In this document: piece after piece, positions 17,040 to 32,909 of the stretch
How positions within the stretch are numbered: the first letter of the stretch is position 1
Layout of the letters: each line of letters opens with the position of its first letter
Position numbers and translations under genes: made by a program
DNA from: Streptomyces sp. AM 4-1-1
GTDB taxonomy: Bacteria > Actinomycetota > Actinomycetes > Streptomycetales > Streptomycetaceae
Direction of reading: 5' to 3'
Length of the DNA: 64,000 bases
NCBI RefSeq assembly: GCF_029167625.1
Contig: NZ_CP119146.1
Location: 186,001-250,000, forward strand
The notes under the pieces: model-generated
Told to the model about the DNA's origin: nothing
Database searches by the model: none
Seen by the model: the letters and a program-made list of their open reading frames with translations, nothing else

Positions 17040-17327
17040 CTAGTTGGGTCGACGGGCATCTGCCCACTTCGGGTAGGGGAGTGCTGGCATGCCGAAGACC
17101 GCCCTCGACCGCTCGGCCCGAGTACGGCCAACGGGCAGGGCATACCTATATGTCCCCGGGTGCCTCTGGCGCCTGGCCCCGATCTGTTCCAACGCGGTGC
17201 GCAGCCAGGCACGCCGGTCGGCCCCCGCAGGGCGCTGCGAGGCGCCCAGCGCCATGATGCGGCGCTCGAACCCGTCAGCACCACGGTCTCCGGTGACGAA
17301 CTTGGCGATAGACCGGGCCGAAGCGCG
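17040..17327 (-). pseudogene. mom: mom-like gene, 3' fragment separated from its 5' part
   Basis: Ninety-five codons plus stop, with no start of their own, encode the C-terminal part of a Mom-like DNA-modification protein (SARSIAKFVTGDRGADGF, AWLRTALEQIGARR, RHPGTYRYALPVGR, LPYPKWAD). The N-terminal part is at 30678-31340. Joining 30678 to 17327 through the shared GCGCG restores a single frame of 316 codons (VLPSGVRASARSIAKF across the join). The stop at 17040 lies 7 bases before promoter P5, the same operon-to-promoter spacing seen elsewhere in the backbone. Confidence 0.75.
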
Positions 17328-17568
17328 CGAGTTCGCAGATTCCTGGACGCCCCTGGTGCGGAACCCGCGCGGGGATGGCTCTTTTCTGCCGCGTTCCGCG
17401 GCGGGTTCGAGCGGTGACTTGCCCGGTGTCGCGGTGTTCCAGATGCCCGTCTGGGATGCCGTCACTCGATAGGAACGGGTGGTGAAGTCCGGCCAGATCG
17501 ACCGCCTCACGCCAGTAGGCTGGCCGCGGTCCTTTGACCACGTCCCCTCGCCTCCAGGAAGAGCTGCC

Positions 17569-18606
17569 GTGAGTAATCAGCCCCGCCTCCCCGAAACCGG
17601 CGACGACGCCGTCGCCCTGCGGGAGACGAGTCGGAACTATCTCCAGATGGTGGCGCAGTCCTGTGGCGAGGAGTATGACGCACCCTGGGCCTGGAACGAG
17701 TTCGGCCTGTGGGTCCCTCCCGAGGATCCGTCGGCCGCATTCGAGGAGGTGCAGTGGGTCTTCGGTGAGTGCAGCCCCGAGGACCCGGCCACCGTCGAGA
17801 TCCTCTGGAAGCACTGGGACGACGCCGCACCGGCCTGGTACCGCATGCACATCATGGAGACCTACGCCGACCGGTCTCGGCCTGCGATGCGCGGCACCTG
17901 GGCGAACCCTGCGACCGGGCTGGTGGAGCTTGCCGACGTGGTGGCGGTGCGGCCTTCCATCGAGGGGTTGCCGCTGAGTTGCACGGAGACCGCGAGCCCG
18001 AAGTTCCGGCCCTCCCCGCTGCGCCCGTCCGCCGTCCCGGAGGACCTGCTGCCCGAGGTCACGATGACCCAGGCCGAGGCGGAGCTGATGATCAGCCTCT
18101 ACCTCCACCTGGAGAGCCACCGTCTCGGCCCGCTGTGGACCACGATCGACGCGCAGGCAGCGGCAACCCGCGACCGCCTCGTCGACATCATCAACACCAC
18201 CGGGGCCGCGGGCTCACGGACCGATATCAACATCACGGTCGCCGTCCGCGACACCTCCGTGAGCCAGTGCCCGCATCACGTCTTCGACCCGGCGCCGGCC
18301 TTCACGGACGTCGACGAGACGCGCACGGTGGGCCTGCACGAGGTCGCCCACGCCCACAAGGACGGAACCGTGGGCCTGGAGGAGCACGGGCACGAGTACC
18401 TGCGTGCGGTCCTGACCTGTGTGGCCCTGTACGGCGGGAGCGTTCACCTGGCCACCGTCCCCCTCGACGGCTCGGCGGTGCCGGTGGCCACCGAGTCCCT
18501 CTACCGCGTGCACTACGACTGGCGGTGCGAGCTCGTGGAAGACGCCGAGCAGCGCCAGATCCGCAACCTCAATGACATGATCGCCACCCGCGACGGCGGC
18601 CGCTGA
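17569..18606 (+). CDS. Unknown plus-strand cargo protein
   Basis: A 345-residue protein starting GTG (17569) after AGGAAGAG. It has an N-terminal Trp/Pro-rich domain (EYDAPWAWNEFGLWVPP, VEILWKHWDDAAPAWYRMHI) and a C-terminal domain with many His/Asp residues (GLHEVAHAHKDGTVGLEEHGHEYL). The pattern is not a recognised hydrolase. It is the only plus-strand gene of the island and converges on the 18636 gene with 29 bases between stops. Role in the element unknown. Confidence 0.7.
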   Translation: MSNQPRLPETGDDAVALRETSRNYLQMVAQSCGEEYDAPWAWNEFGLWVPPEDPSAAFEEVQWVFGECSPEDPATVEILWKHWDDAAPAWYRMHIMETYADRSRPAMRGTWANPATGLVELADVVAVRPSIEGLPLSCTETASPKFRPSPLRPSAVPEDLLPEVTMTQAEAELMISLYLHLESHRLGPLWTTIDAQAAATRDRLVDIINTTGAAGSRTDINITVAVRDTSVSQCPHHVFDPAPAFTDVDETRTVGLHEVAHAHKDGTVGLEEHGHEYLRAVLTCVALYGGSVHLATVPLDGSAVPVATESLYRVHYDWRCELVEDAEQRQIRNLNDMIATRDGGR

Positions 18607-18635
18607 CCCGGGCAGTCTGTCTGGCGTAGGCGCCG

Positions 18636-19274
18636 TTATGCGTCGCCCTTGGCCCGGATCTTCCTGATGAGCTCGGCGTCGGCGCGCATGACTCCGGGGA
18701 CCTTGGTGTCGGCTTCGGTCTGGCCGTGGTCCTCACCGCAGGGACACACGCTCCATCCGTCGGTCTCGATGTGACCCGCGACCTGTTCGATGATGCTGGC
18801 GGCTTCGTCGAGCAGGCCGAGCGGAAGTCCCGTGCTGTCGCTCGTCGAGTCTGCTCCGATCGCGAGGCCGATCTCGAAGATCAGGTCCGTGGCGTGCTGC
18901 ACGGTGCGGGAATCGCCGTTGCTGGAGGCGTACTTGACTGCCTGGGCCAAGGCCATGAGCGGGCGGGAGCAGACCCAGCGGGGCACAAAGGCTGTCCGGT
19001 CGTCGACGCGGACCGGCCGTACGCCGTGGACCGTGTGGGCGCCGTCGGTGTCCACCGCGCTGGCCTTGGCGATCTGATCCGCCACCGCGGAGGGTTCGAT
19101 GTAGCGCAGGGCCGAGCGGGGCTGGATCCCGAGCCGGTCCGCGACCATGGTGACGTTGTGAGCGAGGACGTTGGTCACCGCTACGGAGACGACGTCCAGC
19201 CCTCGGGTGAGGAGTTCGGCCTCCGTCTGGGGCGCGAGGGCCTTGAACGCCTTGGTGTTCCTGATATCTGCCAC
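18636..19274 (-). CDS. Unknown protein downstream of the lasso exporter gene
   Basis: A 212-residue protein beginning with GTG at 19272-19274; no Shine-Dalgarno is visible, so a leaderless or coupled start is possible. The N-terminal half looks like a small helical domain (NVTMVADRLGIQPRSALRYI), and a CPCGEDHGQ motif near residue 177 could bind metal. The gene starts 50 bases after the ABC transporter gene ends, so it may be the last gene of the lasso operon. No known lasso tailoring family was recognised. Confidence 0.6.
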   Translation of the reverse strand: MADIRNTKAFKALAPQTEAELLTRGLDVVSVAVTNVLAHNVTMVADRLGIQPRSALRYIEPSAVADQIAKASAVDTDGAHTVHGVRPVRVDDRTAFVPRWVCSRPLMALAQAVKYASSNGDSRTVQHATDLIFEIGLAIGADSTSDSTGLPLGLLDEAASIIEQVAGHIETDGWSVCPCGEDHGQTEADTKVPGVMRADAELIRKIRAKGDA

Positions 19275-19324
19275 GGTGACCAGCGTAGAGCCCTCGCCGG
19301 AGGGCTCTCGCCGGACGGACGGGC

Positions 19325-21292
19325 TCACCCTTGGGGCTGGCCGGCGTAGGTCCGCGCTTGAGTACGCCAGAGGGTGGCGTATTCGCCGTCGGCTGCGAGG
19401 AGCGAGTCGTGGGTGCCCTCCTCCAGGAGGCGTCCGCCGTCCAGGACGATGATGCGGTCGGCGGCCCGGGTGGAGCCGAGGCGGTGGGTGATCAGGATGA
19501 CGGTGCGCTGCTCGCTCAGTGCGCGGATGCGGTCGTAGACGGCTTCTTCCGCGCGGGGGTCGAGGGCGGAGGTCGGCTCGTCGCAGATCAGGACGGGTGC
19601 GTCCTTGCGGTGGAAGGCTCGGGCCCCGGCCAGGCGCTGCCATTGCCCGCCGGACAGGTCGCGTCCGCCCCACTGTGAGGGGGCGAGGTTGGTGTCGAGG
19701 CCGTCGGACAGGCAGGCGATGACATCGTCGGCTCCGGAGGCGCGGGCCGCGGCCATCACGGTCTCATCATCACCATCGCCTTGGCCGAGGGTGATGTTCT
19801 CGCGGGCCGATACCTGCCAGCGGGCGATGTCCTGGGGCAGCAGCGCGAGACGCGACCACACCTGCTCGGGGTCGGCTGTGGCCAGGTCCACGTCGTCCCA
19901 GGTGACGGTGCCAGTGGTGGGGCTGTAGAGGCCGGCGAGGAGTTTGGCGAGGGTGGACTTGCCCGCGCCGTTCGCGCCCACGATCGCCAGGACCTCGCCA
20001 CGGCGCACGGTGACGCTGATGTTCTCGAGGACGGGCAGCTCGCTGCCGGGGTAGCGGAAGGTGACGTTGTGCGCGGCGATGACGGCCGGGCGGTCGGGCA
20101 CGGGCACGGGTGTGGTGGGGAGCTGGGCGCGGTGTTCGGCGTCGGTGAGGAAGGTGGACCAGTCGCCGAGATAGAGGCCGGTCTTGTAGGTGGAGTTGAT
20201 GCCGGTGACCAGTTGGCCAAGGAGCAGGCGGCAGGACTGTACGGCGATGAAGGCGGTGCCCGCTGCGGCCGCCGGGATATGGCCGCCGAGCACGAGCGCG
20301 AGCAGGGCGCCGTAGACGACGAGGGCGGCGCCTCCGGCCATCGTGTCGCCGAGGAGCTGGTAGCGGGCGGTAGTGCGGCCGATGCGGGCGGCGTGCTCGG
20401 TGAGCCGGTCGGTGACGGTGGTGAACTGGCCCAGGAGCCAGCTGCGCATGGTGTTGGCCCGTACGTCGAGGGCGGTGGCGCGGCCGGCGGTGCAGTAGAT
20501 GAGGTTGTGGCGCAGGCGGCGGTCGGAGAGGGTGTGCCGCTCGGCGAGGTGGGCGGCGCGCGCCCCGCGGACGGCGGCTGCGCCGCGCGGGATCACGGCG
20601 AGCAGTAGGAGCGGGAGAAGTACGGGGTGGAGGGCGGTGAGGATGCCGGCGGCAGCGAGGAGGCCGAGGAGTGCTGCGGTCAGGGCGGTGAGCGCGTCGA
20701 TCATCAAGTGGGCGTCCTTGGAGGCCCGGTTGGCGGCTTCGCTGTGGTCGCACCAGGCCGGGTCGTCGTATGCGGCGAGCGGGACGCGGGTGGCGGCGTT
20801 CAGGTAGCGCAGTTCGGCGATCGCGTCCACGCGGGGGCCGATGCGGGCGGTGACGGCCAGGGTGGTGGCGGCGACCAGGGAGCGGCCGACGGCGGCGCCG
20901 GTGATCAGGGCGAGTGAGGGCAAAGCCGTCTGGATCCGGTCGGCGGTCGGCCCGGTGGCGAGCAGGGGGGCAAGAGCGCCGCGGGTGGCGTAGAGGCCGA
21001 TGGCGGTGATGGCGCCGGTGGCCAGCTGCAGGATGGCGGTGAGCAGGACGGCGCGCCGGTCGGCGTCCCAGGCCAGGCGGAGCGCGGTCGCGGCCAGGGC
21101 GGGCAGGCGCCTGGCGATGGTGGTGAAGTCGTCGGCGAGGGCGTTGTCGTGGCGCTCGGCGCTGACCGTGTACTGCGGGATGGGATCACCACCGGTGGGG
21201 CGGCGGCCTGGCCACGGCAGCCGAAGCCGTCGCCCCGGGGCGGGGGGCGTGAGGGTCTCGCGGGTGGCGCTGCGGTGCGCGGTGTCTGTCAC
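19325..21292 (-). CDS. Lasso peptide ABC exporter (D protein)
   Basis: A 655-residue half-transporter with fused membrane and ATPase domains. The first 330 residues contain several hydrophobic spans. The C-terminal ATPase has Walker A (GANGAGKST, about residue 450), signature LSGGQWQR, Walker B VLICDEPTSALD and a switch His in LITHR. In lasso clusters this protein exports the mature peptide and often gives self-immunity. GTG start at 21290-21292 after AGGA with short spacing. Last recognised biosynthetic gene of the A-C-B-D operon. Confidence 0.85.
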   Translation of the reverse strand: MTDTAHRSATRETLTPPAPGRRLRLPWPGRRPTGGDPIPQYTVSAERHDNALADDFTTIARRLPALAATALRLAWDADRRAVLLTAILQLATGAITAIGLYATRGALAPLLATGPTADRIQTALPSLALITGAAVGRSLVAATTLAVTARIGPRVDAIAELRYLNAATRVPLAAYDDPAWCDHSEAANRASKDAHLMIDALTALTAALLGLLAAAGILTALHPVLLPLLLLAVIPRGAAAVRGARAAHLAERHTLSDRRLRHNLIYCTAGRATALDVRANTMRSWLLGQFTTVTDRLTEHAARIGRTTARYQLLGDTMAGGAALVVYGALLALVLGGHIPAAAAGTAFIAVQSCRLLLGQLVTGINSTYKTGLYLGDWSTFLTDAEHRAQLPTTPVPVPDRPAVIAAHNVTFRYPGSELPVLENISVTVRRGEVLAIVGANGAGKSTLAKLLAGLYSPTTGTVTWDDVDLATADPEQVWSRLALLPQDIARWQVSARENITLGQGDGDDETVMAAARASGADDVIACLSDGLDTNLAPSQWGGRDLSGGQWQRLAGARAFHRKDAPVLICDEPTSALDPRAEEAVYDRIRALSEQRTVILITHRLGSTRAADRIIVLDGGRLLEEGTHDSLLAADGEYATLWRTQARTYAGQPQG

Positions 21293-21348
21293 ATCCTGGG
21301 CAACGCCTCACCCATACGGGTGGTTGTGGTGGCGAAGGGTGGCGAATT

Positions 21349-22065
21349 TCAGTTCGAGCGTTCCACCTGTAGAGCGGAGACGTAGGGCCAGACGCGGTCG
21401 GTCTCGTCCTGCCCGATGATCGCGGTGCCAGCTTCGATCCAGGCGTGGGCCCCTTGAGGGATGAAGCGGGCTCCGACCACCCAGCGCACGCGGTGTCCGG
21501 TGAGCGCGGCCGCGAAGTGCGCGGCCAGGGATTCCTCCAGGCAGGCGGCGCGGCCGGGCCAGAAGCGGGCGGCCCGGCGTACCGCGGCGAAGGCCGCCTC
21601 CGCCTCCTGGGGCAGCGCGGCCCGCCCTGGCAGGAAGGTCACCACGCGGGCGCCGGCGACGGCGATGCGGATAGGCAGGAGGCGGAGCAGGAGGAGCGCC
21701 ACGAACAGCCCGGCGTGTCCGGCCAGTTGTTGGGCAGTGCTGACGCGGACGAGAGTGGTGAACCGGACCTCGGTGCGGTCGGGCTGTGCGGCGGGGGCCG
21801 CGTGGTGGAGGAGGTCGGCGCGTTCCAGGTCGTCGGCGAGCGCGGTGAGGTCGGTGCGGACCTGGGCGGGGTCGGCGCCTTTGCCGTGCCAGTAGGCGGT
21901 GAGGTCGTCGACGGCCGCGGCCGGGGGCGTGCCGTCGGTGATCTTCTGCCACAGGCGGGCGCCGACCGGGTCGAGGAAGCGCCACTGGCCGCGCCCGGCG
22001 CGGATGTCCATCAGGGCGATGCCGTCAGGGCTGGGCGCCGCGTAGACGCCGTTGCGCGCGTTCAT
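21349..22065 (-). CDS. Fused RRE-leader peptidase for lasso peptide (B1-B2 fusion)
   Basis: A 238-residue protein. The N-terminal 90 residues look like a PqqD-type precursor-recognition element (RRE: FLDPVGARLWQKITDG, then a winged-helix pattern ending DDLERADLL). The rest is the transglutaminase-like cysteine protease that cuts off the leader, with Cys175 in AACLEESLA and His207 in GAHAWIEAG. Most actinobacterial lasso clusters split these into two genes; here they are fused. The ATG overlaps the stop of the cyclase gene (ATGA). It should bind the YxxPxL leader motif of the precursor at 24074-24208. Confidence 0.85.
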   Translation of the reverse strand: MNARNGVYAAPSPDGIALMDIRAGRGQWRFLDPVGARLWQKITDGTPPAAAVDDLTAYWHGKGADPAQVRTDLTALADDLERADLLHHAAPAAQPDRTEVRFTTLVRVSTAQQLAGHAGLFVALLLLRLLPIRIAVAGARVVTFLPGRAALPQEAEAAFAAVRRAARFWPGRAACLEESLAAHFAAALTGHRVRWVVGARFIPQGAHAWIEAGTAIIGQDETDRVWPYVSALQVERSN

Positions 22066-23951
22066 CGGGTGACCTCATGTGCGTGGGCGGTGGTCGTCTC
22101 CCACCACGTGGTGCGGGCGGTGGGCAGCGTGGCGAGCCACAGCTCGGTCACGATCAGGGCGTGCAGCGCGGCCAGGGGCGCGGGTTCACCACGGGCGGCG
22201 CTGTCCAGGGAGGCCAGTGCCTTCGATGCGTCGAGCAGGCCGGCCTGGGCCAGGAGAGAGCGGTCGAGGATGCGGCGCAGGGCGGGGGCGTTGGTGCGCA
22301 GTCCGGCGAACAGGCTGCTGGTGAACGCGGTCTTGGTGCGCCGGTGCAGCAGGTAGTCGGGGACGTGGCCGGTGAAGGCTGCGCGGGCCAGGGGCTTGAA
22401 GTCGCCGGGCTGGGTGCGGGCGTAGCCGGGGATCGCGTGGCAGGCGTCCACGACGAGGTCGTCCAGGAGCGGTGCGTGGACGGGCAGCCCCCACTGCTGG
22501 CGGCTGATCTGGTCGAAGGTGGCGTGGCCGTCGCCCATCAGTTCCAGGGCGAGCCGCTCGTGGAGCGCGCCGGGGGTGGTGTCCGGCCGGGCGCTCTGGG
22601 CGCGGGCGGTGACCAGGTCGGCGACCACCGCCCGGCCGGCGCCGGTGAGCCAGGTCATCGCGGCGCCGCTTCCGCACCAGGTGAGCATCTGCACGGCCGA
22701 CGTCCCGGGACCGCGCAAGGCGGTGCGCTCGGGCCCTGCGTTGATCGTGTCCGCGAGGGCGGCGAGGGCCTGGGGGTAGGAGGTGCGCTGCGTGCGGGCA
22801 GCCTGCATGAGTACCGGCCACAGGGCAGCGCGGCGTGTGCGGGCGAACGCCGCGGTACGGCGCAGCGCCTGGTTGCGGTGCCCGGCCAGGTACTGGTCGA
22901 TGGCCATGGTCGGGACCGCGTCCAGGACATCGTCGCCGCCGCGGCCCGTCAGGTGTGCCCGGGATCCGTGAGCTGTGGCCGGGGCGAGTTGCGCGGCTTT
23001 GATGGCCAGCAGGCCGAGCGTGAACGAAGGGGTGTCGGTGAACGGCAGGATCGCCGGGTCCTGAAGGCCGTCGAAGTGCTGCACGCCGGCCCGGGTGCCG
23101 TCGATCGTCGTATGGGTGATCTGCGGGTGGTCGTGGGCGATGCGCTCGGCGTAGCGCATGTCGTCCTGCTGGCTCATGCGCGCGTCGGTGTAGGTGACGG
23201 CCAGCAGCGGCCCGCGGGCGGCGGCCAGGCTGGTGACGGTGCCGCTGTCGACGCCGCCGGAGAGATCCGAGGAGATCGGGCCCGAACTGGTTACCCGCCG
23301 GCCGACGGCGGCGGTGATGGTCTCGCGTACCGCCGTAGCGCCTTCCTCAAAGGACGTCTTGGCCGTGAGAGCCGGTGCGGCTTCGGTTCGCGGCTGCCGG
23401 CCGGGGGTCAGGACGAGGATGTGTCCGGGCGGGACGCGGCGCACCGTGCGGAAGTGGCTATCGGTGGCCAGGACGTCGACGCCGCGCACCATGAACGCAC
23501 TCAGCAGCACGGCCGGGTCGGGCTCGGCCTCGGCGAACGCGGCAAGCGGGGCAGCCGCCGTCGCCCACAGCACACCCTCAGGGACCGGGATCCAGTACAC
23601 GGTCACCGTCCCCGCCCGGTCACCGGCGATACGCAGGCCGGTACGGTCGCGCACCACGGTGAGGCAGGAGCCGGGAAGGCGGATAGCCGCCGGCCAGGCA
23701 CCGCGCTCGGCGGCCGCGCGTGCCGCGGAGAACTCCTCACGGGTGGCCAGGCAGCATCCGATCGCGAAGAGCTCGGCCTGGCCGCGTTGGCCCGAGCCGC
23801 GGCGGACCTCGCCCGGCTCGAACCCGGTCGCCCAGATCCGCGCCGCGTCGTCGGCGAAAACGTCCTGGGCTTCCCGAGGGCGCCAGTCGCTCCCGGCCCA
23901 ACTGCCCCGCCCCGTATCGAATGTTCCGGCAATGAACCGCATGGTGGCCAC
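22062..23951 (-). CDS. Lasso macrolactam synthetase (C protein, asparagine-synthetase-like)
   Basis: A 629-residue asparagine synthetase homologue. The N-terminal glutaminase-like domain starts MATMRF and lacks the usual N-terminal Cys. The synthetase domain has the ATP-pyrophosphatase loop SGGVDS (residues 231-236). In lasso pathways this enzyme adenylates the Asp/Glu side chain and closes the ring on Gly1. GTG at 23949-23951 is used here; an ATG 9 bases downstream (MRF) is an equally possible start. It is separated from the precursor gene by about 120 bases that contain a stem-loop. Confidence 0.85.
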   Translation of the reverse strand: MATMRFIAGTFDTGRGSWAGSDWRPREAQDVFADDAARIWATGFEPGEVRRGSGQRGQAELFAIGCCLATREEFSAARAAAERGAWPAAIRLPGSCLTVVRDRTGLRIAGDRAGTVTVYWIPVPEGVLWATAAAPLAAFAEAEPDPAVLLSAFMVRGVDVLATDSHFRTVRRVPPGHILVLTPGRQPRTEAAPALTAKTSFEEGATAVRETITAAVGRRVTSSGPISSDLSGGVDSGTVTSLAAARGPLLAVTYTDARMSQQDDMRYAERIAHDHPQITHTTIDGTRAGVQHFDGLQDPAILPFTDTPSFTLGLLAIKAAQLAPATAHGSRAHLTGRGGDDVLDAVPTMAIDQYLAGHRNQALRRTAAFARTRRAALWPVLMQAARTQRTSYPQALAALADTINAGPERTALRGPGTSAVQMLTWCGSGAAMTWLTGAGRAVVADLVTARAQSARPDTTPGALHERLALELMGDGHATFDQISRQQWGLPVHAPLLDDLVVDACHAIPGYARTQPGDFKPLARAAFTGHVPDYLLHRRTKTAFTSSLFAGLRTNAPALRRILDRSLLAQAGLLDASKALASLDSAARGEPAPLAALHALIVTELWLATLPTARTTWWETTTAHAHEVTR

Positions 23952-23996
23952 CCCGATCCGCTCGTCCGTGTACTGGTCTGCCGCTGTTCACCGAAC

Positions 23997-24039
23997 GAGC
24001 GCCCGGCTCGCCGGCCATCGGCCGACGCTCCGGGCGCTC
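23997..24039 (-). terminator. Stem-loop between lasso precursor and cyclase genes
   Basis: Inverted repeat GAGCGCCCGG (23997-24006) and CCGGGCGCTC (24030-24039), with an inner CGGCC/GGCCG stem. It lies 35 bases after the precursor stop. There is no T tract, so partial read-through that favours precursor over enzyme mRNA is the likely role. Confidence 0.6.
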
Positions 24040-24073
24040 GCTCACCCGATCACGCCCCGCTGGGGGCGCCGTA

Positions 24074-24208
24074 CTACTGCCAGTACTGGGTGTCGTCCGC
24101 GTTGTTGTTGCCGGCGGAGCCGAGGGTGGCGCCGGTGACGGTGCCCAGCGCGCTCAGCACGGGCGCGGTGTAGGTCTCGGTCTCGGCGGTCGTGGCGGTG
24201 GTGTCCAT
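24074..24208 (-). CDS. Lasso peptide precursor (A)
   Basis: A 44-residue precursor with a strong Shine-Dalgarno (GGAGG, 7 bases before the ATG at 24206-24208). The leader carries the actinobacterial lasso motif YTAPVLSALG (YxxPxLxxxG) and Thr at position -2 (T28, before L29). The predicted core is the 15-residue GSAGNNNADDTQYWQ: Gly1 would join Asp9 in a 9-residue ring, leaving the tail DTQYWQ with Tyr13 and Trp14 as possible plugs. There is no Cys, so a class II lasso peptide. It lies in order A-C-B-D. I do not recognise this core among known lasso peptides. Confidence 0.9.
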   Translation of the reverse strand: MDTTATTAETETYTAPVLSALGTVTGATLGSAGNNNADDTQYWQ

Positions 24209-24395
24209 GGAGTACCTCCGGTAGTCGTCGCGCTTCGGATGTCCGCCGGCCGCCCGGGGTGTCTGGCAGCTCCCGTACGGCCTCTCGAACTCCTCTATGA
24301 CACCGCGCGCCAACCCCACCCAACAGAGCAGAAGTTGGGGACTTCGTAGAACCCGACCTGGAACGGAACTGGTATTCGACTAGGAGGTGCCGGAG

Positions 24396-25598
24396 TCAGC
24401 GTGGCTCCAGGAGGTCGAGGACGGCGCGGTGGTAGACCGCGTACACCTGCGGGAGCTCGGCAAGACTCGCGCGCTCGTCGATGCCATGCAGGCCCTCATA
24501 CGGGACCCCGAATCCGGCGGTCGACGGGATGCCACCTGCTTGTCCGGCCAGCAGGTTGCCGATGTTCGACGGGCCGGCGGTCTTGGCCCGCACCGCCAGG
24601 CCCAAGGAGGCTGCAGCGTCCATCAGCGCGGCGGCGGGCTGCTCGTGCGGCTGCAACTGGAAGGGCGGCCAGCTGGCGACCGGTGTGACCCGGGTGGCCG
24701 CGGGGCCGGGCAGCTCGGCGTCGAGCTCAGTGGTGGCCTTGCGGACCAGCGTCTCGGCATCGTGGGCGTCGAAGCCCGGGGTCGTGCGCACGTCGACGTT
24801 CAGGTCGCATCGGTCCGCTGCCACGGAGAAGCCCTCGCCCCCATGGATCGCGGTGACCGACAGCTTCGGCGGCAGCCCGAACGCCGCGTCCGCCGCCGGA
24901 GGGCCGGGCAGGTCGGCGGTGTCCAGGAGCTGGACCAGGCGCGCGGCACGAGAAACGGCACTCAGAACGCTCCGGCTGGAGCCGGAGTGCCCGGAGTCGG
25001 CGAACACCGTGAGGGTCGCGCGCCACAGGCCCCGGCCCCCGACGACGACATCGTCCAGGCCGGGGTAGCCGATCATCACCCCCGCCGGGATGGGGGCCTC
25101 CGGGTCGGCGAGGTACGCGCGGGCTCCGCCGAAGCCGCCAGTGTGTTCGTCGACGTCCAGGAGGACCGCCAGACCACCACGCAGCGTTTCGGCATGGGGC
25201 AGCAGATCGGCGGCGATGTGGCAGAACATCGAGGCGGCGAGCTTGGAGTCGGCGGAACCCCGGCCGCGCAGAAACCCGTCGACGATGTCTCCGGCCGTCG
25301 GCGGGAACGTCCACGCTTCCTCGTCGCCGAAGGAGGCGGTGTCCACGCAGGCGTCCAGAGTCCACCACAGGCCCGGCTGGCCTCCAGCGATCTCCACCAG
25401 CAGCCCCACCAGCTGTCCCGCCTCGTCGTGCAAGCGCCGGTGCGGCAGGGCGCGACTGCTCAGCCAGTCCTCCAGAACGGTCAGGACCGGCGCGTAGTCG
25501 TCGATTCCCCCGCGGCTGGGCCTGCGGATCAGCTCCTGGGCCAGCTCGATCACGGACGCCGACCGCGCAGCGGCACGGGCCACCAAGTCCTTCTTCAC
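24396..25598 (-). CDS. M20-family peptidase with altered metal ligands
   Basis: A 400-residue protein with the M20 (ArgE/DapE/CPG2) fold signature: GRGSADSK supplies the bridging Asp, DVDEHTGG the catalytic Glu, and EGLHGIDE the last His. Two usual ligands differ: the first motif reads ACVDT where family members have GHxDx (His to Cys), and DEE is DEH (Glu to His). Both substitutes can bind metal. GTG start at 25596-25598 with GGGAG; it overlaps the XRE gene by 4 bases. Its position beside the lasso genes suggests a peptide-processing or degradation role, but this is inference. Confidence 0.75.
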   Translation of the reverse strand: MKKDLVARAAARSASVIELAQELIRRPSRGGIDDYAPVLTVLEDWLSSRALPHRRLHDEAGQLVGLLVEIAGGQPGLWWTLDACVDTASFGDEEAWTFPPTAGDIVDGFLRGRGSADSKLAASMFCHIAADLLPHAETLRGGLAVLLDVDEHTGGFGGARAYLADPEAPIPAGVMIGYPGLDDVVVGGRGLWRATLTVFADSGHSGSSRSVLSAVSRAARLVQLLDTADLPGPPAADAAFGLPPKLSVTAIHGGEGFSVAADRCDLNVDVRTTPGFDAHDAETLVRKATTELDAELPGPAATRVTPVASWPPFQLQPHEQPAAALMDAAASLGLAVRAKTAGPSNIGNLLAGQAGGIPSTAGFGVPYEGLHGIDERASLAELPQVYAVYHRAVLDLLEPR

Positions 25599-26395
25599 GC
25601 TTCTCCCAGTCCTGGCGTTGCGCCGTGCCGGACCGGCAGCGCGCGAACGGCCTCCAACGTCTCCACCGGCCGCGCGGACGCGCACGCCTCCCGCCCATGC
25701 TGCACCAGTCCCACCGCGGCCTCGCGACCCAATAAGACCCCGCAGTCGAACCCCTCGGCCCCGTGGAAACTCGGCAGCGGGACCACGGCCGCGGTCTCCG
25801 AGGCCACGAAGTAGCGTTCCATCGCTTCCAGCGGCTCGACGAGTCCGATGTGGAGCGTCTTGACACCGTTACGACGCTCGCCGGGGTCGCGTAGCTCCAG
25901 CAGCCGCACCAGGTGCTCGGACAACCCGCGGTGACGCGGCGGCCCGTACAGCACCCGGTAGTGCACCAGATCGGGCTGCTGCGCCACGGCTGTCTCGATC
26001 GCCGCCAGGTACGCCTTCTCCCGACTGCGGGACCCCGTGACCACCAGGTGTTCACGCGCGCCGACCACGACCTCGACCATTGCCTCGACGAGATCGGTGT
26101 ACCGGGTAAGCACCCGCACGACCACGTCGGTTCCGGTGGCCTCCAGAGCACTGGCAGTATCGCGCCCGTCCTGGTGGGCGAAGAGCACCTCGGAGCGTTT
26201 CCGGTAGAGCTGACTCAACGCCCGGCGGTTCCTCACCCCCGTGCGTTTGCGCCCCGACTCCCACGCGCTGAGCAGGCTCGCGTCCGTCGCACCACCCGTG
26301 ATCTCGTTCAGCTGATCAGCCGCCTCCTCTTGCGTCAGGTTCTGAGCCAGCCGAGCTCGCTTGAGTGCCGAGTCTGTGCCTAACACTCCGGTCAC
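25595..26395 (-). CDS. XRE-family regulator with a TTA codon and C-terminal sensor-like domain
   Basis: A 266-residue protein. The N-terminal HTH (LKRARLAQNLTQEEAADQLN, then DASLLSAWESGRK) is XRE type. The C-terminal 180 residues resemble the PLD-like or ligand-sensing domains found in similar actinobacterial regulators. I chose the GTG at 26393-26395 because GGGAG lies 6 bases upstream; an ATG at 26416 has no Shine-Dalgarno. Codon 5 is TTA (26381-26383), so translation is expected to need the bldA tRNA. It probably controls the peptidase gene and perhaps the lasso genes. Confidence 0.75.
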   Translation of the reverse strand: MTGVLGTDSALKRARLAQNLTQEEAADQLNEITGGATDASLLSAWESGRKRTGVRNRRALSQLYRKRSEVLFAHQDGRDTASALEATGTDVVVRVLTRYTDLVEAMVEVVVGAREHLVVTGSRSREKAYLAAIETAVAQQPDLVHYRVLYGPPRHRGLSEHLVRLLELRDPGERRNGVKTLHIGLVEPLEAMERYFVASETAAVVPLPSFHGAEGFDCGVLLGREAAVGLVQHGREACASARPVETLEAVRALPVRHGATPGLGEA

Positions 26396-26653
26396 TGCTA
26401 CTCCCAGGAATGACATTGAGCGGCCGGGCCCGAGCTGCGCCGCGCCGCCACGTGGGCTGATTACACTGCTCTTTCCCCAGCCCCGACCCTTCGGCGCTTA
26501 CGGCGCGGCCCTCGACCTGGCACCAGGTTCTCATCTTCCTCCGCCAGCAAGGGCGTTGGCTGAAGAACGACCGAGTTTCGGCAACGCGGGGGACACGGAA
26601 AGCCAGGCTCCGCCGAGACCCACACCCATCTCTTGTCGTTCTCGCACCGGCCG

Positions 26654-28996
26654 TCACCGGGGAAGCTGGGAGGTCTTCTCAGGATGAGCCGCGCCCACGT
26701 AGTGCATGGCGGTCTTCTCCGTGATGCCGAACAGGCGCATGAGCTTCAGCGGATCACCTGTCTCGAACGCCTCGTTCAGGATTCGGTCCTGGCGCAGGCC
26801 GTCCAGCGTGAACCCCTTGGGCAGATGCCTGTGGAGCATGCTCATGCTGACCGGGGGGTGGTCGGGGTCGAGTGCGGTGCGCTGGCTGACGAGCAGGTGG
26901 GGATTGGTCGAGGCTGGCCAGCGGCGATGGCGGTAGGTGAGCCACTCGGAGGCGAGGGTGTGGGTGAACTCCTCAATGTAGAGGGTGTGGCGCAGTAGGC
27001 CGCGGCGGGCTTCGAGGGTGCCGTGGGCGAGGTTGAGGTCGCCGGTCAGCAGCGTGGGGATCTCATGGCCGGGCAAGGCGTGGACGGCGGTCAGGGCGAC
27101 GACGAGCCGGCCGAGCGGGGTCGCGGCGCGGTCGAGGAGCCCGGCCAAGAGGTCCGAGGGCACGGACTTCGGGATGCCCTTGAGGTCGCCGACGGGGAGC
27201 GTGCGGGTGGGGTCGCGAAAGACGACGCGTTCCTGGCGCAGGGCCTTGAACAGGCTGCGCAGGCTGATGGCGAGCTGGCGGCGGGCGCTCCCGGTCAGGT
27301 CGTCGACGGCGGTGGTGGCGTGGTCGCTGGTGATCTGCCGCAACGTTGTGACGCTGCTGTTGGTCCAGGCGGTGAGGATCGGCTCGAGGGCGAAGAGATA
27401 GCGGCGGATGCCGTCGTAGCCGCGGGCCTCGTGCTCGCGCCGGCCCTGGCCACGCAGGACCTGCACCCACAGCCGGACCTCGTCGGCGACCGTCGGCGGC
27501 AGCTTGCCGATGGTGGCTTCAATCCATACCTGGTCGGCGTCCCGGTGCAGTTCGGGGTCCTCGGCCAGCAGGCCGCGGGCGTCGAGGAACTGGCAGACTC
27601 GCTTGGCCGCGAGGTTGGGGTCGAGCCGCGCGAGGTCGTGGACGTCGCGCTCCTGGAAGACCGCCTCGGCGCCGAGCCAGTACACCAGGATCGTCAGGGT
27701 GCGGATGTCCTTGCGGTACGCGGGGTCCTGCTGGCCGCGACGTAGCCGGTCGAGTTCCTCGGTCAGTGCACGGGCTGCGCTGGTCAACCGCAGGTCCCTG
27801 TAGCTGCGGCGACGCAGATGGACCATAACTGGCGACCAGTCGCGCCGCATGCCGAAGAGCGGCTCCTGCCCGCGGGCGGCATGAAGGGAGGACACCGCCT
27901 CGTCCTCGTCATTCACCTGTGCGGACTCAGCGTCCGGGATCAGCTGGGCCTGGCCGGGAGCCCCATGGGGAAGGTCGATGACCAGCTGGGTGGCCTCGGC
28001 CGCTGCCGGGCCTGCGTCGTCCAGATGCCGGTAGAGGCGGCAGGTACGGCACCGGCCGCCGCGCAGCGGCAGCTCCTCCCGCAAGCACCGTCCGCACCGG
28101 CCCACTGGGTGCAGCTCGCGCCAGTGACGGCACGGATTGCAGCGGAAGCCTCTTTTGCCGCTGGCCATCCAGGCATCGCAGTCGCGGCATGACCGCGCTG
28201 CGGACGGCGGCAACGGTGCCGGGGCGGTGATGTAGGTGGTGGTGGGCTGGTTGGTGGTGGAGAACCGCATCGGCTCCGGCGCCTGGTCCAGCAGTCCGGC
28301 CCGCAGCAGGACCAGGCGCACCGCGTCCCCATTGGACGGCAGGTCCCTCAGCATCGGCTCGGGCAGCAGTACGGCGCCCTCCGCCTCCCGAACGGCCAGC
28401 GCGAGGCGGACCATCTCGGCGATTGCGCGCTGCCAGCCCACGGACAGGCCGTGTTCGGCCGCCATCGCCTCGATCACCAGGCGGCATTCCTCCCACCCGG
28501 CGACCGGCCGACCGACGATCGCGCTGACCGTGGTGTCGGTCAGCACCCTGGGCACCGTGAACAGTGCAAGCTGGCCGCACACCTGCGCCTGGAGCACCAG
28601 CGGCCCGGCCGGGGCGGCGCGCTGCTTCCGCAGCTTGATCCACCACCCCTGCCCCACCTTGAGTCCCGTCTTCGTGGGCCGGCGCAGCGGCCGGGCGTCC
28701 GCCGACCGATCACCGTACGTGCCGCCGACCATGAGCTGGACCGGCCGCGGCCGTGCTTCCTCCAGACCCAGGGCCCACTCGGCGTCGTCCTCGGCCCGGA
28801 TCGCCTGCAAACACGGTTTGCACAACCCGTCAGGGTTGAGGTGAGCCTCGTGCCGGCATCGCGGGCACGTTCCGAGCTCGGGATGCTTCCTTTTCCACGG
28901 TCGGCACCCGTCGCAGACCCGGTACCAGTGCACCACCAGCCACCCCAGGCACACCGGGCAACTCCGCGCCAGCCCCTTTCCCCGTTCCACCGCCAC
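26654..28996 (-). CDS. Large zinc-finger recombinase-like protein (third gene of the recombinase module)
   Basis: A 780-residue protein with several Cys4-type zinc clusters in the N-terminal half (CPVCLGWLVVHWYRVCDGC, CPRCRHEAHLNPDGLCKPC, CRDCDAWMASGKRGFRCNPC, CGRCLREELPLRGGRCRTC). The C-terminal part resembles a degenerate tyrosine-recombinase core (GHEIPTLLTGDLNL, LRQDRILNEAFETGDPLKL, AMHYVGAAHPEK). It follows the small HTH gene within 12 bases. Start GTG at 28994-28996 with AAAGG. Together with 29008-29355 and 29352-30533 it forms a three-gene set like TnpA-TnpB-TnpC of Tn554-type elements. Confidence 0.7.
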   Translation of the reverse strand: MAVERGKGLARSCPVCLGWLVVHWYRVCDGCRPWKRKHPELGTCPRCRHEAHLNPDGLCKPCLQAIRAEDDAEWALGLEEARPRPVQLMVGGTYGDRSADARPLRRPTKTGLKVGQGWWIKLRKQRAAPAGPLVLQAQVCGQLALFTVPRVLTDTTVSAIVGRPVAGWEECRLVIEAMAAEHGLSVGWQRAIAEMVRLALAVREAEGAVLLPEPMLRDLPSNGDAVRLVLLRAGLLDQAPEPMRFSTTNQPTTTYITAPAPLPPSAARSCRDCDAWMASGKRGFRCNPCRHWRELHPVGRCGRCLREELPLRGGRCRTCRLYRHLDDAGPAAAEATQLVIDLPHGAPGQAQLIPDAESAQVNDEDEAVSSLHAARGQEPLFGMRRDWSPVMVHLRRRSYRDLRLTSAARALTEELDRLRRGQQDPAYRKDIRTLTILVYWLGAEAVFQERDVHDLARLDPNLAAKRVCQFLDARGLLAEDPELHRDADQVWIEATIGKLPPTVADEVRLWVQVLRGQGRREHEARGYDGIRRYLFALEPILTAWTNSSVTTLRQITSDHATTAVDDLTGSARRQLAISLRSLFKALRQERVVFRDPTRTLPVGDLKGIPKSVPSDLLAGLLDRAATPLGRLVVALTAVHALPGHEIPTLLTGDLNLAHGTLEARRGLLRHTLYIEEFTHTLASEWLTYRHRRWPASTNPHLLVSQRTALDPDHPPVSMSMLHRHLPKGFTLDGLRQDRILNEAFETGDPLKLMRLFGITEKTAMHYVGAAHPEKTSQLPR

Positions 28997-29007
28997 CGGT
29001 CGGCCTT

Positions 29008-29355
29008 TCAGTTCGGCGGGAGCGAGCGTGGCCCGGCGCCCCGACGGCTGTGCGGCACCGGCCGGACCGGGCCCGCCGCATGCTGTTCCTCGGCGCCGAC
29101 CGCCCGCTGGCCGGACTCCGGTGCCGCCTGGGCGCCGGCGAGCGGCTCGGCCTGGAGCAGGTCGGCGACCGTGCAGTTCAGCGCGGCACACATCATGTCC
29201 AGGTCCTCCAGGCGCACCGTGACCGGCGTCCCGCCCCACAGGGCCGCGACCTTGCTCAGCGACGGGTTGAACCCCACCTGCTGGAAGGCGGCCAGCACCT
29301 CGGTCGGCCGCCACAGATCCCGTTGCGCGGCCACCATCCGAAGGTTCCACTTCAC
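29008..29355 (-). CDS. Small HTH protein of the recombinase module
   Basis: A 115-residue protein whose first 70 residues form a Cro/C1-type HTH (KWNLRMVAAQRDLWRPTEV, then LSKVAALWGGTPVTVRLEDL and MCAALNCTVADLLQAEP). The C-terminal tail is basic and Pro-rich. It overlaps the tyrosine recombinase gene by 4 bases and precedes the large zinc-finger gene, so all three are probably translated together. Likely a recombination cofactor or local regulator. Confidence 0.75.
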   Translation of the reverse strand: MKWNLRMVAAQRDLWRPTEVLAAFQQVGFNPSLSKVAALWGGTPVTVRLEDLDMMCAALNCTVADLLQAEPLAGAQAAPESGQRAVGAEEQHAAGPVRPVPHSRRGAGPRSLPPN

Positions 29356-30533
29356 CGTAGGTTCCCCTTATCCATCACCAGTCGTTGGGCCGCCCGGGAG
29401 CTCGCGGTCAGGTTCGCGTGCTCAGGGTCGGCGTGCGCGGTCGCCATGTACCGAAGTGTCGTGGTTGCCCAGTCGTGTCCGAGGACTTTCTGCACTTCCC
29501 ACAACGTCATCCCGCGCTCGTAGTTGTGGGTCGCGCATGCGTGACGCAGCAGGTGCGGGAAAAGGTCGGCGACCGGACCGGTCAGGTAGCTCGCAGCGGC
29601 CGTGTGCAGCGCCTTGCGGAACGTGGACGGCACGATCGCCGGCGCGATCGGCAGGTTCAGCGCGGAAACTGCGGTCGGCTTGCGCTCGGAAGGCCACAGC
29701 GGCGCCCGCGGGTGATCGACGTCATCGCCGAACTCGCCCCGGATCTCCTCGATATACCACCACAGGAGGGCCCGGCCCTCCTGGAACATGTACGCCTCGC
29801 GAGGCCGCGGGCCTGAACCGTTCGCGCCCTTTCCCAGGACGATGAACCGCCCCCACTGGCCGTGCTCCCAGTGCAGGTCGCCCATGCACACGCCACACAG
29901 CTCCGCGGCGCGGACGCCGGAGAGGTAGGCGACCTTGGTCATCACGTAGTCGCGGCAGGCGACGAGGTACTTCCGGGCGTTGGGCAGGTCCTCGCGCCAC
30001 CGGCCGAGGAAGTCCCGCATCGCCTTCTGCGACGGCGGGATCCGCAAGCCGAAGTCCCCGCGGTGCCGCGGCCGGTTGAACGGATCGATCGGCGACTCGA
30101 CGGCGGCGCCGAAGCGCCGCATGATCTCGCCGGCGTACCGCTGCTCGAGGAACGCGAAGTACGCGTCGATCTTGCCGCGCAACGTCGAGGTCGCCCGCTT
30201 GCCCGGTCCGGCGAAGTAGCGGTCGACCTCGCGCGGGGAGAGCTGCCATGGCACGGTGCCGTAGTACTCGCAGACCTCCACCACCGGCTTGAGCAGGCCG
30301 TCGAGAGTCGTCGGCGCCAGCCCAGCCGCGTCTCGGGCCCACTGGTACTCCGAGAGCGTGTCGAGGAAGAAGCTCTCCTCGTCGACGGCGGACATGCGGG
30401 CCTGCCGGCGGCGCTGCAGGGTGACGACGTCCGCCAGCCCGGACTCCACCGACACCGCGGCCGGATCCACCACCTCGGCGGCGTCCGCCCCCGGGCGTAC
30501 CAGGGTCAGCACGCGACTTTCGGAATCTGACAC
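29352..30533 (-). CDS. Tyrosine recombinase (integrase) of the lasso island
   Basis: A 393-residue tyrosine recombinase with the full catalytic set: Arg208 (LSGVRAAELCG), His327 and Arg330 (HLLRHACATH), His353 (LGHDWATTT) and nucleophile Tyr362 (LRYM). The N-terminal half is the DNA-binding arm and core-binding domain. It is the first gene inside the right end of the 13.35-kb island and should cut and rejoin at the GCGCG core. GTG start at 30531-30533 with weak Shine-Dalgarno; ATG at codon 47 is possible. Confidence 0.85.
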   Translation of the reverse strand: MSDSESRVLTLVRPGADAAEVVDPAAVSVESGLADVVTLQRRRQARMSAVDEESFFLDTLSEYQWARDAAGLAPTTLDGLLKPVVEVCEYYGTVPWQLSPREVDRYFAGPGKRATSTLRGKIDAYFAFLEQRYAGEIMRRFGAAVESPIDPFNRPRHRGDFGLRIPPSQKAMRDFLGRWREDLPNARKYLVACRDYVMTKVAYLSGVRAAELCGVCMGDLHWEHGQWGRFIVLGKGANGSGPRPREAYMFQEGRALLWWYIEEIRGEFGDDVDHPRAPLWPSERKPTAVSALNLPIAPAIVPSTFRKALHTAAASYLTGPVADLFPHLLRHACATHNYERGMTLWEVQKVLGHDWATTTLRYMATAHADPEHANLTASSRAAQRLVMDKGNLR

Positions 30534-30677
30534 GAACCGGAAAATTACAGGGACTACACGCAGAATCTGCGAGTTACTGCTGACATCTCACACCAACGAG
30601 TGAATGTCCCCGAAGGGGGTCTCTGCCTGCTGAAATGCTGCTTCGCCGGGCCAGACCGCCTCTGACGAACCCGCGCG

Positions 30678-31340
30678 TACTCCACTAGGGAGCACCTGGC
30701 CGTCCGGCAGCACGATGACCGTCCTCGCAGTGCTGCGGCCCGTATACGTTGCGGAAAGGGCCTGGTAGATAACACCCAGGTGCCCTCGGGGCGAGCCGGC
30801 GGTGCGCCCATCCGGCAAGGTCCGAAGCCGTGCGACAGGGTCCGCGTAGGTGACCACCCCCCGCACCCCGTGGCCCGCGGCAAGACGCAGAGCCGCAGCG
30901 ACCGTGAAACTCTCCCCGTTGCTCGCCACCGAGGGGGACAGGCACACCCTCGACATTTCCAACGCCTCCGTATAAGGCTCCAGCGACGGGAAAACCCTGG
31001 TCAGAGCCCGGCGGCTCATCGGAACACCCAGGACCACGACACCCACCAGCAGGTGGCCGTCGACCGCTTGGCCGTCGTCGCCCCCTGCTGCCTCGAGGTC
31101 CACCAGCCCAAACCGGTGGACCGCCGGCGGCCACCCCGACAGGTAGTGGTTCGCCTGGATGTACTCCCGGGCGGGCGCCTCCGCCAGCTCGACCACCTCG
31201 TAGCGGCGCCGGTCAAAGCCGCCCTGCGACGTGTGCACCCACGTCGGTACACCGCCGCTCCACCGCTGAGCCCAGCCCTCGGCGCCGCCGGCAGCCATGG
31301 CTTCCCACCGCGCCGGAGCGGGCCCGAGCGGCGCGCTCAC
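30678..31340 (-). pseudogene. mom: mom-like gene, 5' fragment (Mom-family DNA modification, GNAT-like)
   Basis: Codons 1-221 of a Mom-like protein: REYIQANHYLSGWPP, LLVGVVVLGVP, ALEMSRVCLSPS, GESFTVAAALRLAAG, GVVTYADP, GHLGVIYQALSATYTGRS and VIVLPDGQVLP match the actinobacterial Mom/GNAT-like family from memory. Phage Mu Mom modifies adenine in DNA and blocks restriction. The frame runs on into the island and stops at 30588, giving a truncated 250-residue product with a foreign tail. The 3' fragment is at 17040-17327. It starts within the stop of the DUF6884 gene (ATGA) in the P6 operon. Confidence 0.75.
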
Positions 31341-32104
31341 CGCTCCTGCCCGGCTTCGGCCCGCGCGGCGAGACGGATCTGGGAGAGGCGTTGCTTCATC
31401 TCCCCGATCCCGCCGGCTCCGGCGAGCGGCGCCTCAAGGCCCGGCCAGGACTGCCGGGCGAGGGCCACGTACTTGCTGCCGGCCAGTACCGTCACCTCCG
31501 CCGACTCGATGCCGCGTTCCCGGACCTGCGCCTGCACGAAGTCCGCGCTGACGCTGCCGGGGTCGCCCACGGTGATGTCGTACGGGTCGATCTCCGTGGT
31601 CAGGTCCAGAAGCCCGTGGGCGGCGGAAAGGATGTACTGGCGGCCGCCGTCCTGAAGCAGGGCTTTGGCCGTCTCCCGGCAGGAGCCGTGGAAGGTGCCG
31701 ACGTACATCGCACCGGCGGTCACGCGGCGGTCCTGCTTGGCCTTTCCGCAGCCTACGATAACGATCCGGAACCTGCCCGCGCCCTCGGCGCGGGCCCGCT
31801 GCCAGCCGGCCTCGGTCAGAGCGCCGCCCCAGACGTCCAGCTGGTCCCGCGTCGCCTCCTGCCCACGAAGGATGTCGCGGCTCTGGTCCAGGCCGACGTA
31901 GCCGGCATCGGCGAGGGACGCCAGGGTCCGGAGGTTGACGGACTTGGGCAGCAGCCCGAGAGGGTCCTTGGCCCCGGCGAGGAGGGCGCTGCGCTGGGCG
32001 GGGGTGATGCGGGGTGTGGAGGTTCCGGCCGTACGAGGCCGGTCCGGGGCACCTGGCGAAAGGGACGTGCCCGCAAAGCTGTTGTGGGTGTGGTCGGTGG
32101 TCAT
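31337..32104 (-). CDS. DUF6884-domain protein
   Basis: A 255-residue protein. Its C-terminal half matches the DUF6884 pattern: FRIVIVGCGKAKQDRR, MYVGTFHGSCRETAKALL, and YILSAAHGLLDLTTEIDPYD. The N-terminal half is Ala/Leu-rich and variable. DUF6884 proteins are common in actinobacteriophages and plasmids, with unproven nucleic-acid-related roles. Start at 32102-32104 with GAGGA; a second ATG lies 3 bases upstream. It overlaps the mom-like gene start by 4 bases, suggesting a joint function. Confidence 0.75.
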   Translation of the reverse strand: MTTDHTHNSFAGTSLSPGAPDRPRTAGTSTPRITPAQRSALLAGAKDPLGLLPKSVNLRTLASLADAGYVGLDQSRDILRGQEATRDQLDVWGGALTEAGWQRARAEGAGRFRIVIVGCGKAKQDRRVTAGAMYVGTFHGSCRETAKALLQDGGRQYILSAAHGLLDLTTEIDPYDITVGDPGSVSADFVQAQVRERGIESAEVTVLAGSKYVALARQSWPGLEAPLAGAGGIGEMKQRLSQIRLAARAEAGQER

Positions 32105-32463
32105 CATGTTCCTCGTGAGGGGGGCGGCGCCGGCTGGGTGTCGGCCCAGCGGGCGGGCAGGGTGGTGTCGCCGTCTTCCTCGCGGCGTTGGTCTTCCAGG
32201 TCCGCGGCGCGGACGCGTCCGATGTGCCACTGCTCGGCGGTGTGGCCGCTCGGCCGGCGGCACCGCTGTCGGGGCGCGGCTTTGCACGTGGGGCAGGTCA
32301 GGGACGCCGGGCAGGTGTCGCCGATGTCCGCGCCGTCGCAGAAGGCGCAGGGCCGGACCGTGGCCGGCAGTGCGCGCCCGGCGACGTCGACGAGGAGACC
32401 GGCTGCGCGCCAGGCGCGTTCCTCCGCTCTCGTCGACGGCGGCCCGAAGCTCTGGCGGTTCAC
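32104..32463 (-). CDS. Zinc-finger protein
   Basis: A 119-residue protein with CAFCDGADIGDTCPASLTC followed by CPTCKAAPRQRCRRPSGHTA and a downstream His, a pattern common in actinobacteriophage and plasmid zinc fingers. GTG start at 32461-32463 overlaps the stop of the upstream gene (GTGA). Its own stop overlaps the DUF6884 start by one base. Probably a DNA-binding accessory protein of the P6 operon. Confidence 0.75.
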   Translation of the reverse strand: MNRQSFGPPSTRAEERAWRAAGLLVDVAGRALPATVRPCAFCDGADIGDTCPASLTCPTCKAAPRQRCRRPSGHTAEQWHIGRVRAADLEDQRREEDGDTTLPARWADTQPAPPPSRGT

Positions 32464-32909
32464 GCCCCGCATGCCTCGGCTGCCGGGGCCGCGCGTACGA
32501 AGGTCTCGCCCTCGGGCCAGATCGCGATGATCTTGTGGTGGGACAGGAACTCCCGTGCGACCGGGCCCGGCTCCATGGTGAACAGCAGCGCACGGTGGGC
32601 GGGGGAGAAGAGCCGCTCGCAGTCGCTGATCACCCCGTACGCGGTGACGAGCGCGCGATAGTGGGAGCGGTGGCAGGCCATCACCAGTTCTCCGGCGGTC
32701 GCGTCGAAGAGGTCGGTGGACGCCAGAGCGGGATCCGTGACGACGCGGTGCCGCAGGACACGGTGTCCCTTGGCCGTCAGGTGGAAGAGATAGGCGGTCA
32801 GGACCGCGTCCTCCGAGCGGTCCGCCTCCCCGTCGTTGGCCCGGCCGGGCTGGGGCCGGGCGGGATCGGAAGGAGCGAGGAAGACGACGTGCGGGCGGTC
32901 GGTGGTCAT
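32460..32909 (-). CDS. Unknown protein (possible nucleotide-sugar/toprim-like fold)
   Basis: A 149-residue protein with alternating strand/helix patterns: RPHVVFLAPSDPA, ELVMACHRSHYRALVTAYGV, RALLFTMEPG and SHHKIIAIWPEGETFV. This looks like a small alpha/beta Rossmann-like domain, but no motif gives a function. It lies in the P6 operon, upstream of the zinc-finger gene. Confidence 0.65.
   Translation of the reverse strand: MTTDRPHVVFLAPSDPARPQPGRANDGEADRSEDAVLTAYLFHLTAKGHRVLRHRVVTDPALASTDLFDATAGELVMACHRSHYRALVTAYGVISDCERLFSPAHRALLFTMEPGPVAREFLSHHKIIAIWPEGETFVRAAPAAEACGA

Follow-up and report, generated by a model that had tools for sequence, protein, structure and literature searches.

A mom gene in two pieces

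The window, i.e., the whole stretch of 64,000 nucleotides analysed here (positions 186,001 to 250,000 of contig NZ_CP119146.1 from Streptomyces sp. AM 4-1-1; G000:C2:186001-250000 in our genome labelling), is part of a genome of 7.47 Mb in two contigs, and its backbone resembles large Streptomyces plasmids such as that of strain BB1-1-1, pFRL4, pFRL5 and pSCL3. On its reverse strand, one Mom-type gene is found in two pieces, 31340-30688 and 17319-17040, between which an element of 13,368 bp (17320..30687, delimited by comparing the junctions with empty sites) is inserted. The 5' piece (30688..31340) extends through the proline of VLP and keeps an NGES serine motif, while the 3' piece (17040..17319, stop at 17040) encodes ARSIAKF...PYPK and shows 93% identity to residues 205-293 of an intact relative. 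In line with the initial annotation, which had proposed a gene split by an island, the two flanks are fused at a single point in three records (NZ_CP134205.1 at 65804, NZ_CP066832.1 at 254985 and NZ_CP108618.1 at 144173), and both pieces are continuous in the first two of these. In BB1-1-1 and Streptomyces liliifuscus the flanks meet inside one open gene, in the former a single frame of 933 nt with a TAA stop (L001:5153-6085). In S. avidinii the site is likewise empty, yet its mom gene is broken elsewhere.

The assignment to the Mom family, also suggested by the initial annotation, is corroborated by PF25680, PHROG 1384 and a profile match to phage Mu Mom (PDB 8bv8, 'Methylcarbamoylase mom'; E-value (E) 3e-9), whereas a PDB sequence search with one Mom sequence gave no match. 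The 5' piece covers only positions 2-135 of the 202 positions of PF25680 (E 4e-17), compared to 2-202 in the intact S. liliifuscus gene (L003; 69.6 bits, cut-off 27.1). Features in common with Mu Mom are the fold (of a phage homologue), the serine position and the C-terminal PYPK. More precisely, Ser124 of Mu Mom, required for activity as judged from the PDB title 'inactive mutant S124A', is placed by eye opposite the serine of NGES in both the S. liliifuscus gene and the window piece, with serine at this position in 11 of 13 homologues and threonine in the other two. These 13 unbroken homologues (seven from plasmid records and six from genomes) all continue through the C-terminal region, and none ends where the 5' piece ends. 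Even three viral loci in which the match stops at residue 209 still have PYPK near the end.

At the empty site of BB1-1-1, GTGCTCCC|GGCCCGGTCGATC codes for VLP-ARSIAKF, and the target deduced from aligned junctions and empty sites is GTGCTCCC|GGCCCGG, with the junction position ambiguous by one base (C). Both comparisons made at mom, window versus BB1-1-1 and pFRL4 versus S. liliifuscus, show a target with neither additional nor missing bases. The initial annotation, however, had joined the pieces through a shared GCGCG, which is present at the junction in none of the three empty sites, the GCGCG motifs belonging instead to the element ends. As the join in intact relatives thus differs from the predicted one, the proposed site and the rebuilt protein of 316 codons are refuted; that 951-nt reading holds 18 nt (SGVRAS) of the element ends, compared to the native 933 nt. 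Nor did a scan restricted to sigma-70-type promoters detect the promoter P5 postulated next to 17040.

Both element ends recur at other targets. The left, integrase-proximal end, TAGTGGAGTACGCGCGGGTTC, starts at 30687 (30667..30687, reverse strand), and, allowing for up to four errors, 32 of 34 non-duplicate copies with at least 71% identity have its motif at a distance of 151-154 bp ahead of the integrase start; the two copies lacking it (L035 and L045) are both partial integrases. More distant copies differ from one another in the initial three bases of this motif. The right end, CCAGGAATCTGCGAACTCGCGCGCTTC with the terminus GAACTCGCGCGCTTC (17320..17346, reverse strand, ending at 17320), corresponds to right ends in other genomes. 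A profile of this end, built in part from the window's own sequence, gave one match in the window and none in eight shuffled windows, searching both strands.

Next to the left end, the element encodes, all on the reverse strand, a short tyrosine recombinase of 393 amino acids (aa) (29352..30533, PF00589) bearing the full catalytic set, with R208, K235, H327, R330, H353 and Y362 invariant in the alignment, a small helix-turn-helix (HTH) protein of 115 aa (29008..29355, PF13443 HTH_26, E 5e-9) and a long partner of 778 aa (26654..28990). The latter combines a Cys-rich N-terminal half (extension of more than 400 aa) with a C-terminal tyrosine-recombinase fold at about residues 495-777, the active site of which is partly degenerate as judged by eye. 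For this long protein, neither a Pfam match above cut-off nor a match in a PDB sequence search was found, and comparing its profile with that of the short recombinase gave no signal, with too few effective sequences.

Such a set resembles the Tn554-related transposons of actinobacterial plasmids and chromosomes, for which Van Houdt et al. (2012; PMC3414803) describe two tyrosine recombinases, one short and one abnormally long, mostly accompanied by a small co-directional third gene, in sections that name neither ends nor target genes nor cargo. The third gene of the window element differs in encoding an HTH_26 protein, at most a candidate for TnpC. The locus very likely represents a Tn554-like transposon carrying a lasso-peptide cluster that has inserted at a recurrent site in a plasmid mom gene. 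Entry would occur between VLP and ARS, leaving the target bases unchanged, and mobilisation probably involves the short catalytic recombinase together with the HTH protein and the long, partly degenerate recombinase. A likely route is via a circular intermediate with GAACYCGCGCGCTTC next to TAGTGGAGTAC at its junction, whose ends, joined around TAGTGG, would recombine with the target. The joined ends read GAACYCGCGCG-CTTC-TAGTGG-AGTA-CGCGCGGGTTC, and the arms inverted around TAGTGG suggest that the element brings along its own 6-bp overlap. In contrast, Tn554-related elements and SEs are described (PMC10214605) as having a right-junction hexamer that differs each time, i.e., a 6-bp footprint, with the SE hexamer coming from the donor flank. 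According to the two comparisons at mom, such a footprint is absent from the window-element family. For one family of actinobacterial transposons of the Tn554-like kind, the ends are thus defined to the base, except for the ambiguous C at the junction.

Recurrent insertion into plasmid mom genes

Of 392 genomes of the genus, 21 encode a Mom relative (E 1e-6), counting the genome to which the window belongs. Nine of these genomes have a full-length gene (G255, G043, G023, G059, G349, G292, G128, G028 and G234), while in eight (G000, G391, G370, G369, G377, G342, G350 and G142) it is broken at residues 203-209, and the right end of the window-element family is found at that break in all of the latter except G142. 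Of the remaining four, G147 is broken near codon 108 and three (G025, G375 and G144) show other fragments. Conversely, mom is the target in 9 of the 32 element copies; among the 24 copies retrieved by genome searches, i.e., not by backbone similarity, four are in mom and two in DUF6884. Some other targets are presumably GGDEF and Tn3 transposase genes, as judged from motifs. The insertion into DUF6884 (L009) fits the target within one base. Across the eight occupied loci (28 pairs), integrase and partner identities track each other (Spearman 0.90), and mom identity does not track either of them. Because mom and element identities are uncorrelated, this argues for separate entries of the element into mom.

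Five mom genes (S. longwoodensis, S. avidinii, G147, G370 and G369) show breaks near codon 108, and in the two named first a second recombinase family is present there. The S. longwoodensis break is accompanied by recombinases of 384 and 864 aa, both matching PF00589, the S. avidinii break by similar recombinases according to annotation, and in the other three only the junctions were seen. The right junctions, read by eye without a same-strain empty site for comparison, show differing hexamers (CATGCC, TGGCCT, GGAGCC, GCGTCC and CCAACC), as reported for Tn554-related elements and SEs (PMC10214605). Footprint-free insertion is found beside a version with a 6-bp footprint within the same gene. 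Further breaks are located at codon 57 of the S. mirabilis gene, beside recombinases of 391 and 844 aa and a DUF6262 protein, and at codon 150 of the S. avidinii gene, beside genes without Pfam match. Taken together, these comparisons at the sequence level show that plasmid mom genes are hit recurrently both by the window-element family and by a second family of recombinases, tying a DNA-modification gene to the landing of transposons. Among the papers listed from one open-access library, no title or opening abstract line named a Mom gene as transposon landing site.

Several observations weigh against the interpretation as a Tn554-like transposon that inserted at a recurrent site in mom and stopped DNA modification. 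The window integrase lacks three residues (KIN or similar) found in its nine aligned relatives, so that this copy may be inactive. Besides, the same recombinases are also found at non-mom targets, mom accounting only for the minority of copies given above, and a comparison by eye of the sequences flanking insertions in mom, in DUF6884 and elsewhere did not reveal a target consensus. The break in G142 falls on the same residues but lacks a match to the right end, and the G144 piece, although its match ends at 209, is not followed by an element end. In the DUF6884 insertion, one target base is unaccounted for when the same right end is assumed. Finally, as the 5' piece retains the serine motif and gains an element-coded tail, it might conceivably keep some residual activity.

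In G350, a left end lies in DUF6884 (L149:560) and the next right end at the 3' half of mom (L150:1405), which looks as if two elements had fused and the intervening DNA had been lost. Plasmid pSHJG1 (L012:8427-20750) carries a complete element directly followed by a second, distant recombinase trio, the integrase of which is 31% identical. The host chromosome bears three more integrase copies (G000:C1:42525-43709, 7125129-7126313 and 7021893-7023077). Two of the chromosomal copies (87% identity) are near opposite chromosome ends and do not differ in their upstream sequence, pointing to a terminal inverted repeat.

Probable consequences for Mom and alternative readings

Insertion deprives Mom of its C-terminal third, comprising one strand of the GNAT sheet and the PYPK region, which very probably stops DNA modification; the disabled function stated in the initial annotation is deduced from this loss. 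Insertion events seem to be recent in part, as pFRL4 (occupied) and S. liliifuscus (empty) differ only by two synonymous changes in 204 codons and by none in 89 codons. Moreover, 9 of 10 5' pieces examined are without stops over the matched length (three of the nine being partial), and the same holds for 12 of 12 3' pieces (G142 over 55 residues only). The tenth 5' piece, from pFRL5 (L004), is cut short and in frame only over about the last 25 codons, hence outside the count of open pieces. Two fragments from G370 and one from G025 contain a single stop each, while G350, G377, G342 and G142 gave no 5' mom match. From the mostly open pieces and the few changes, many insertions thus appear to be young, or to be reversed often enough to keep selection on mom. 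With their 5' pieces damaged or missing, some insertions are, by the same evidence, past repair by excision.

A far-reaching reading would treat Mom genes as a safe harbour shared on actinobacterial plasmids, with at least two Tn554-like families at fixed codons 204 and 108, one of them scarless with its own TAGTGG overlap, a reversible modification switch, and cargo (lasso peptide, metal resistance) swapped at the site. In this full form, it is only tentatively put forward and rather unlikely. Somewhat less probable still is that scarless, precise excision restores Mom so that the element toggles plasmid modification. This would be consistent with the missing footprint in both comparisons, with the stop-free pieces and with a ratio of nonsynonymous to synonymous substitution rates (dN/dS) of 0.08-0.11 for the window 5' piece versus four relatives. 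However, open frames are equally explained by recent insertion, as illustrated by the near-identity of pFRL4 and S. liliifuscus, and neither the damaged copies (pFRL5, G370 and G025) nor those without 5' match can revert. Among the latter is G350 with its ends in two different genes. In addition, Tn554-resembling SE elements are reported to leave no empty sites (PMC10214605).

Alternatively, the truncated 5' piece plus an element-coded tail could function as a short Mom, with nothing disabled. The frame is indeed open into the element, with SGVRAGS tails in all five loci examined, and the low dN/dS of the 5' piece would be in agreement. Nevertheless, this is quite improbable, since beyond SGVRAGS the tails are variable both in length and in sequence, a fold strand and a conserved motif are lost, and the orphan 3' piece, dispensable if the short form were functional, is conserved as well (dN/dS 0.10-0.38, window versus four relatives, based on few changes). 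A genomic island of the ordinary integrase type, with both att sites sharing a short GCGCG core, as might be assumed from the presence of GCGCG near both ends, is practically untenable, this core being refuted by all three empty sites and the motifs being parts of element ends that recur at other targets.

Gene neighbourhood and cargo

Directly upstream of mom, and overlapping its start by 4 nt, the window encodes a DUF6884 protein (31337..32593, reverse strand; PF21818, E 6e-19). In seven other plasmids tested, this place is taken by DpdA (L010, L007, L110, L111, L165, L166 and, as a weaker match, the Sphingomonas locus L164), with a 4-nt overlap of DpdA and mom in L010, L165, L166 and L007. 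Microbacterium and Variovorax plasmids have other annotated neighbours beside mom. Of the 21 genomes with a Mom relative, 6 have DpdA beside mom, and G000 does not encode it anywhere. This Mom is found in one phage record, and DpdA is beside viral Mom in only 2 of 80 loci (3-kb flanks), hence a general DpdA-Mom pairing was rejected.

In PADLOC, the DUF6884 protein scores weakly as DpdC (E 6e-6), and a neighbouring DUF4007 backbone protein strongly as SspB (E 3e-65); coordinates of the SspB- and DpdC-scoring backbone genes are L001:612-1607 and L003:6635-7393. In view of the DpdA, DUF6884 and DUF4007 neighbours, a modification module seems to be present on the plasmids. In contrast to Mu Mom, the plasmid mom genes adjoin DUF6884 or DpdA. 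DpdA is the enzyme inserting 7-deazaguanine into DNA. The substrate of the Mom product may be a 7-deazaguanine base instead of adenine.

The cargo of the element is a lasso-peptide cluster, encoded entirely on the reverse strand. Following the recombinase trio are genes for an HTH regulator (25595..26416; PF01381, E 9e-5, 22.9 bits at a cut-off of 23), an M20-family metallopeptidase (24396..25685, PF01546), the putative lasso precursor (24074..24208), an asparagine-synthase-like macrolactam (lasso) cyclase (22062..23951; NF033561, E 7.5e-84; PF00733), a fused PqqD-like/B2 leader peptidase (21349..22065; NF033537 above cut-off, PF13471, PF05402) and an ABC exporter (19325..21292, PF00005). Cyclase, B2 protein, exporter and short precursor are shared with lasso clusters whose cyclases belong to the albusnodin/ikarugamycin family (NF033561). 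Differing from these, the window's cluster sits on a recombinase element and its cyclase reaches 282 bits, thus staying below the cut-off of 300 bits. As transposon cargo, it exemplifies a concrete way for such clusters to spread. Near-identical open reading frames for the precursor are present in S. anulatus and strain YIM 121038, where the putative core, GSAGNNNADDTQYWQ in the window according to the deduced leader/core split, corresponds to GSAGSNNADDTQYWQ and GSASANNADDTEYWQ, respectively.

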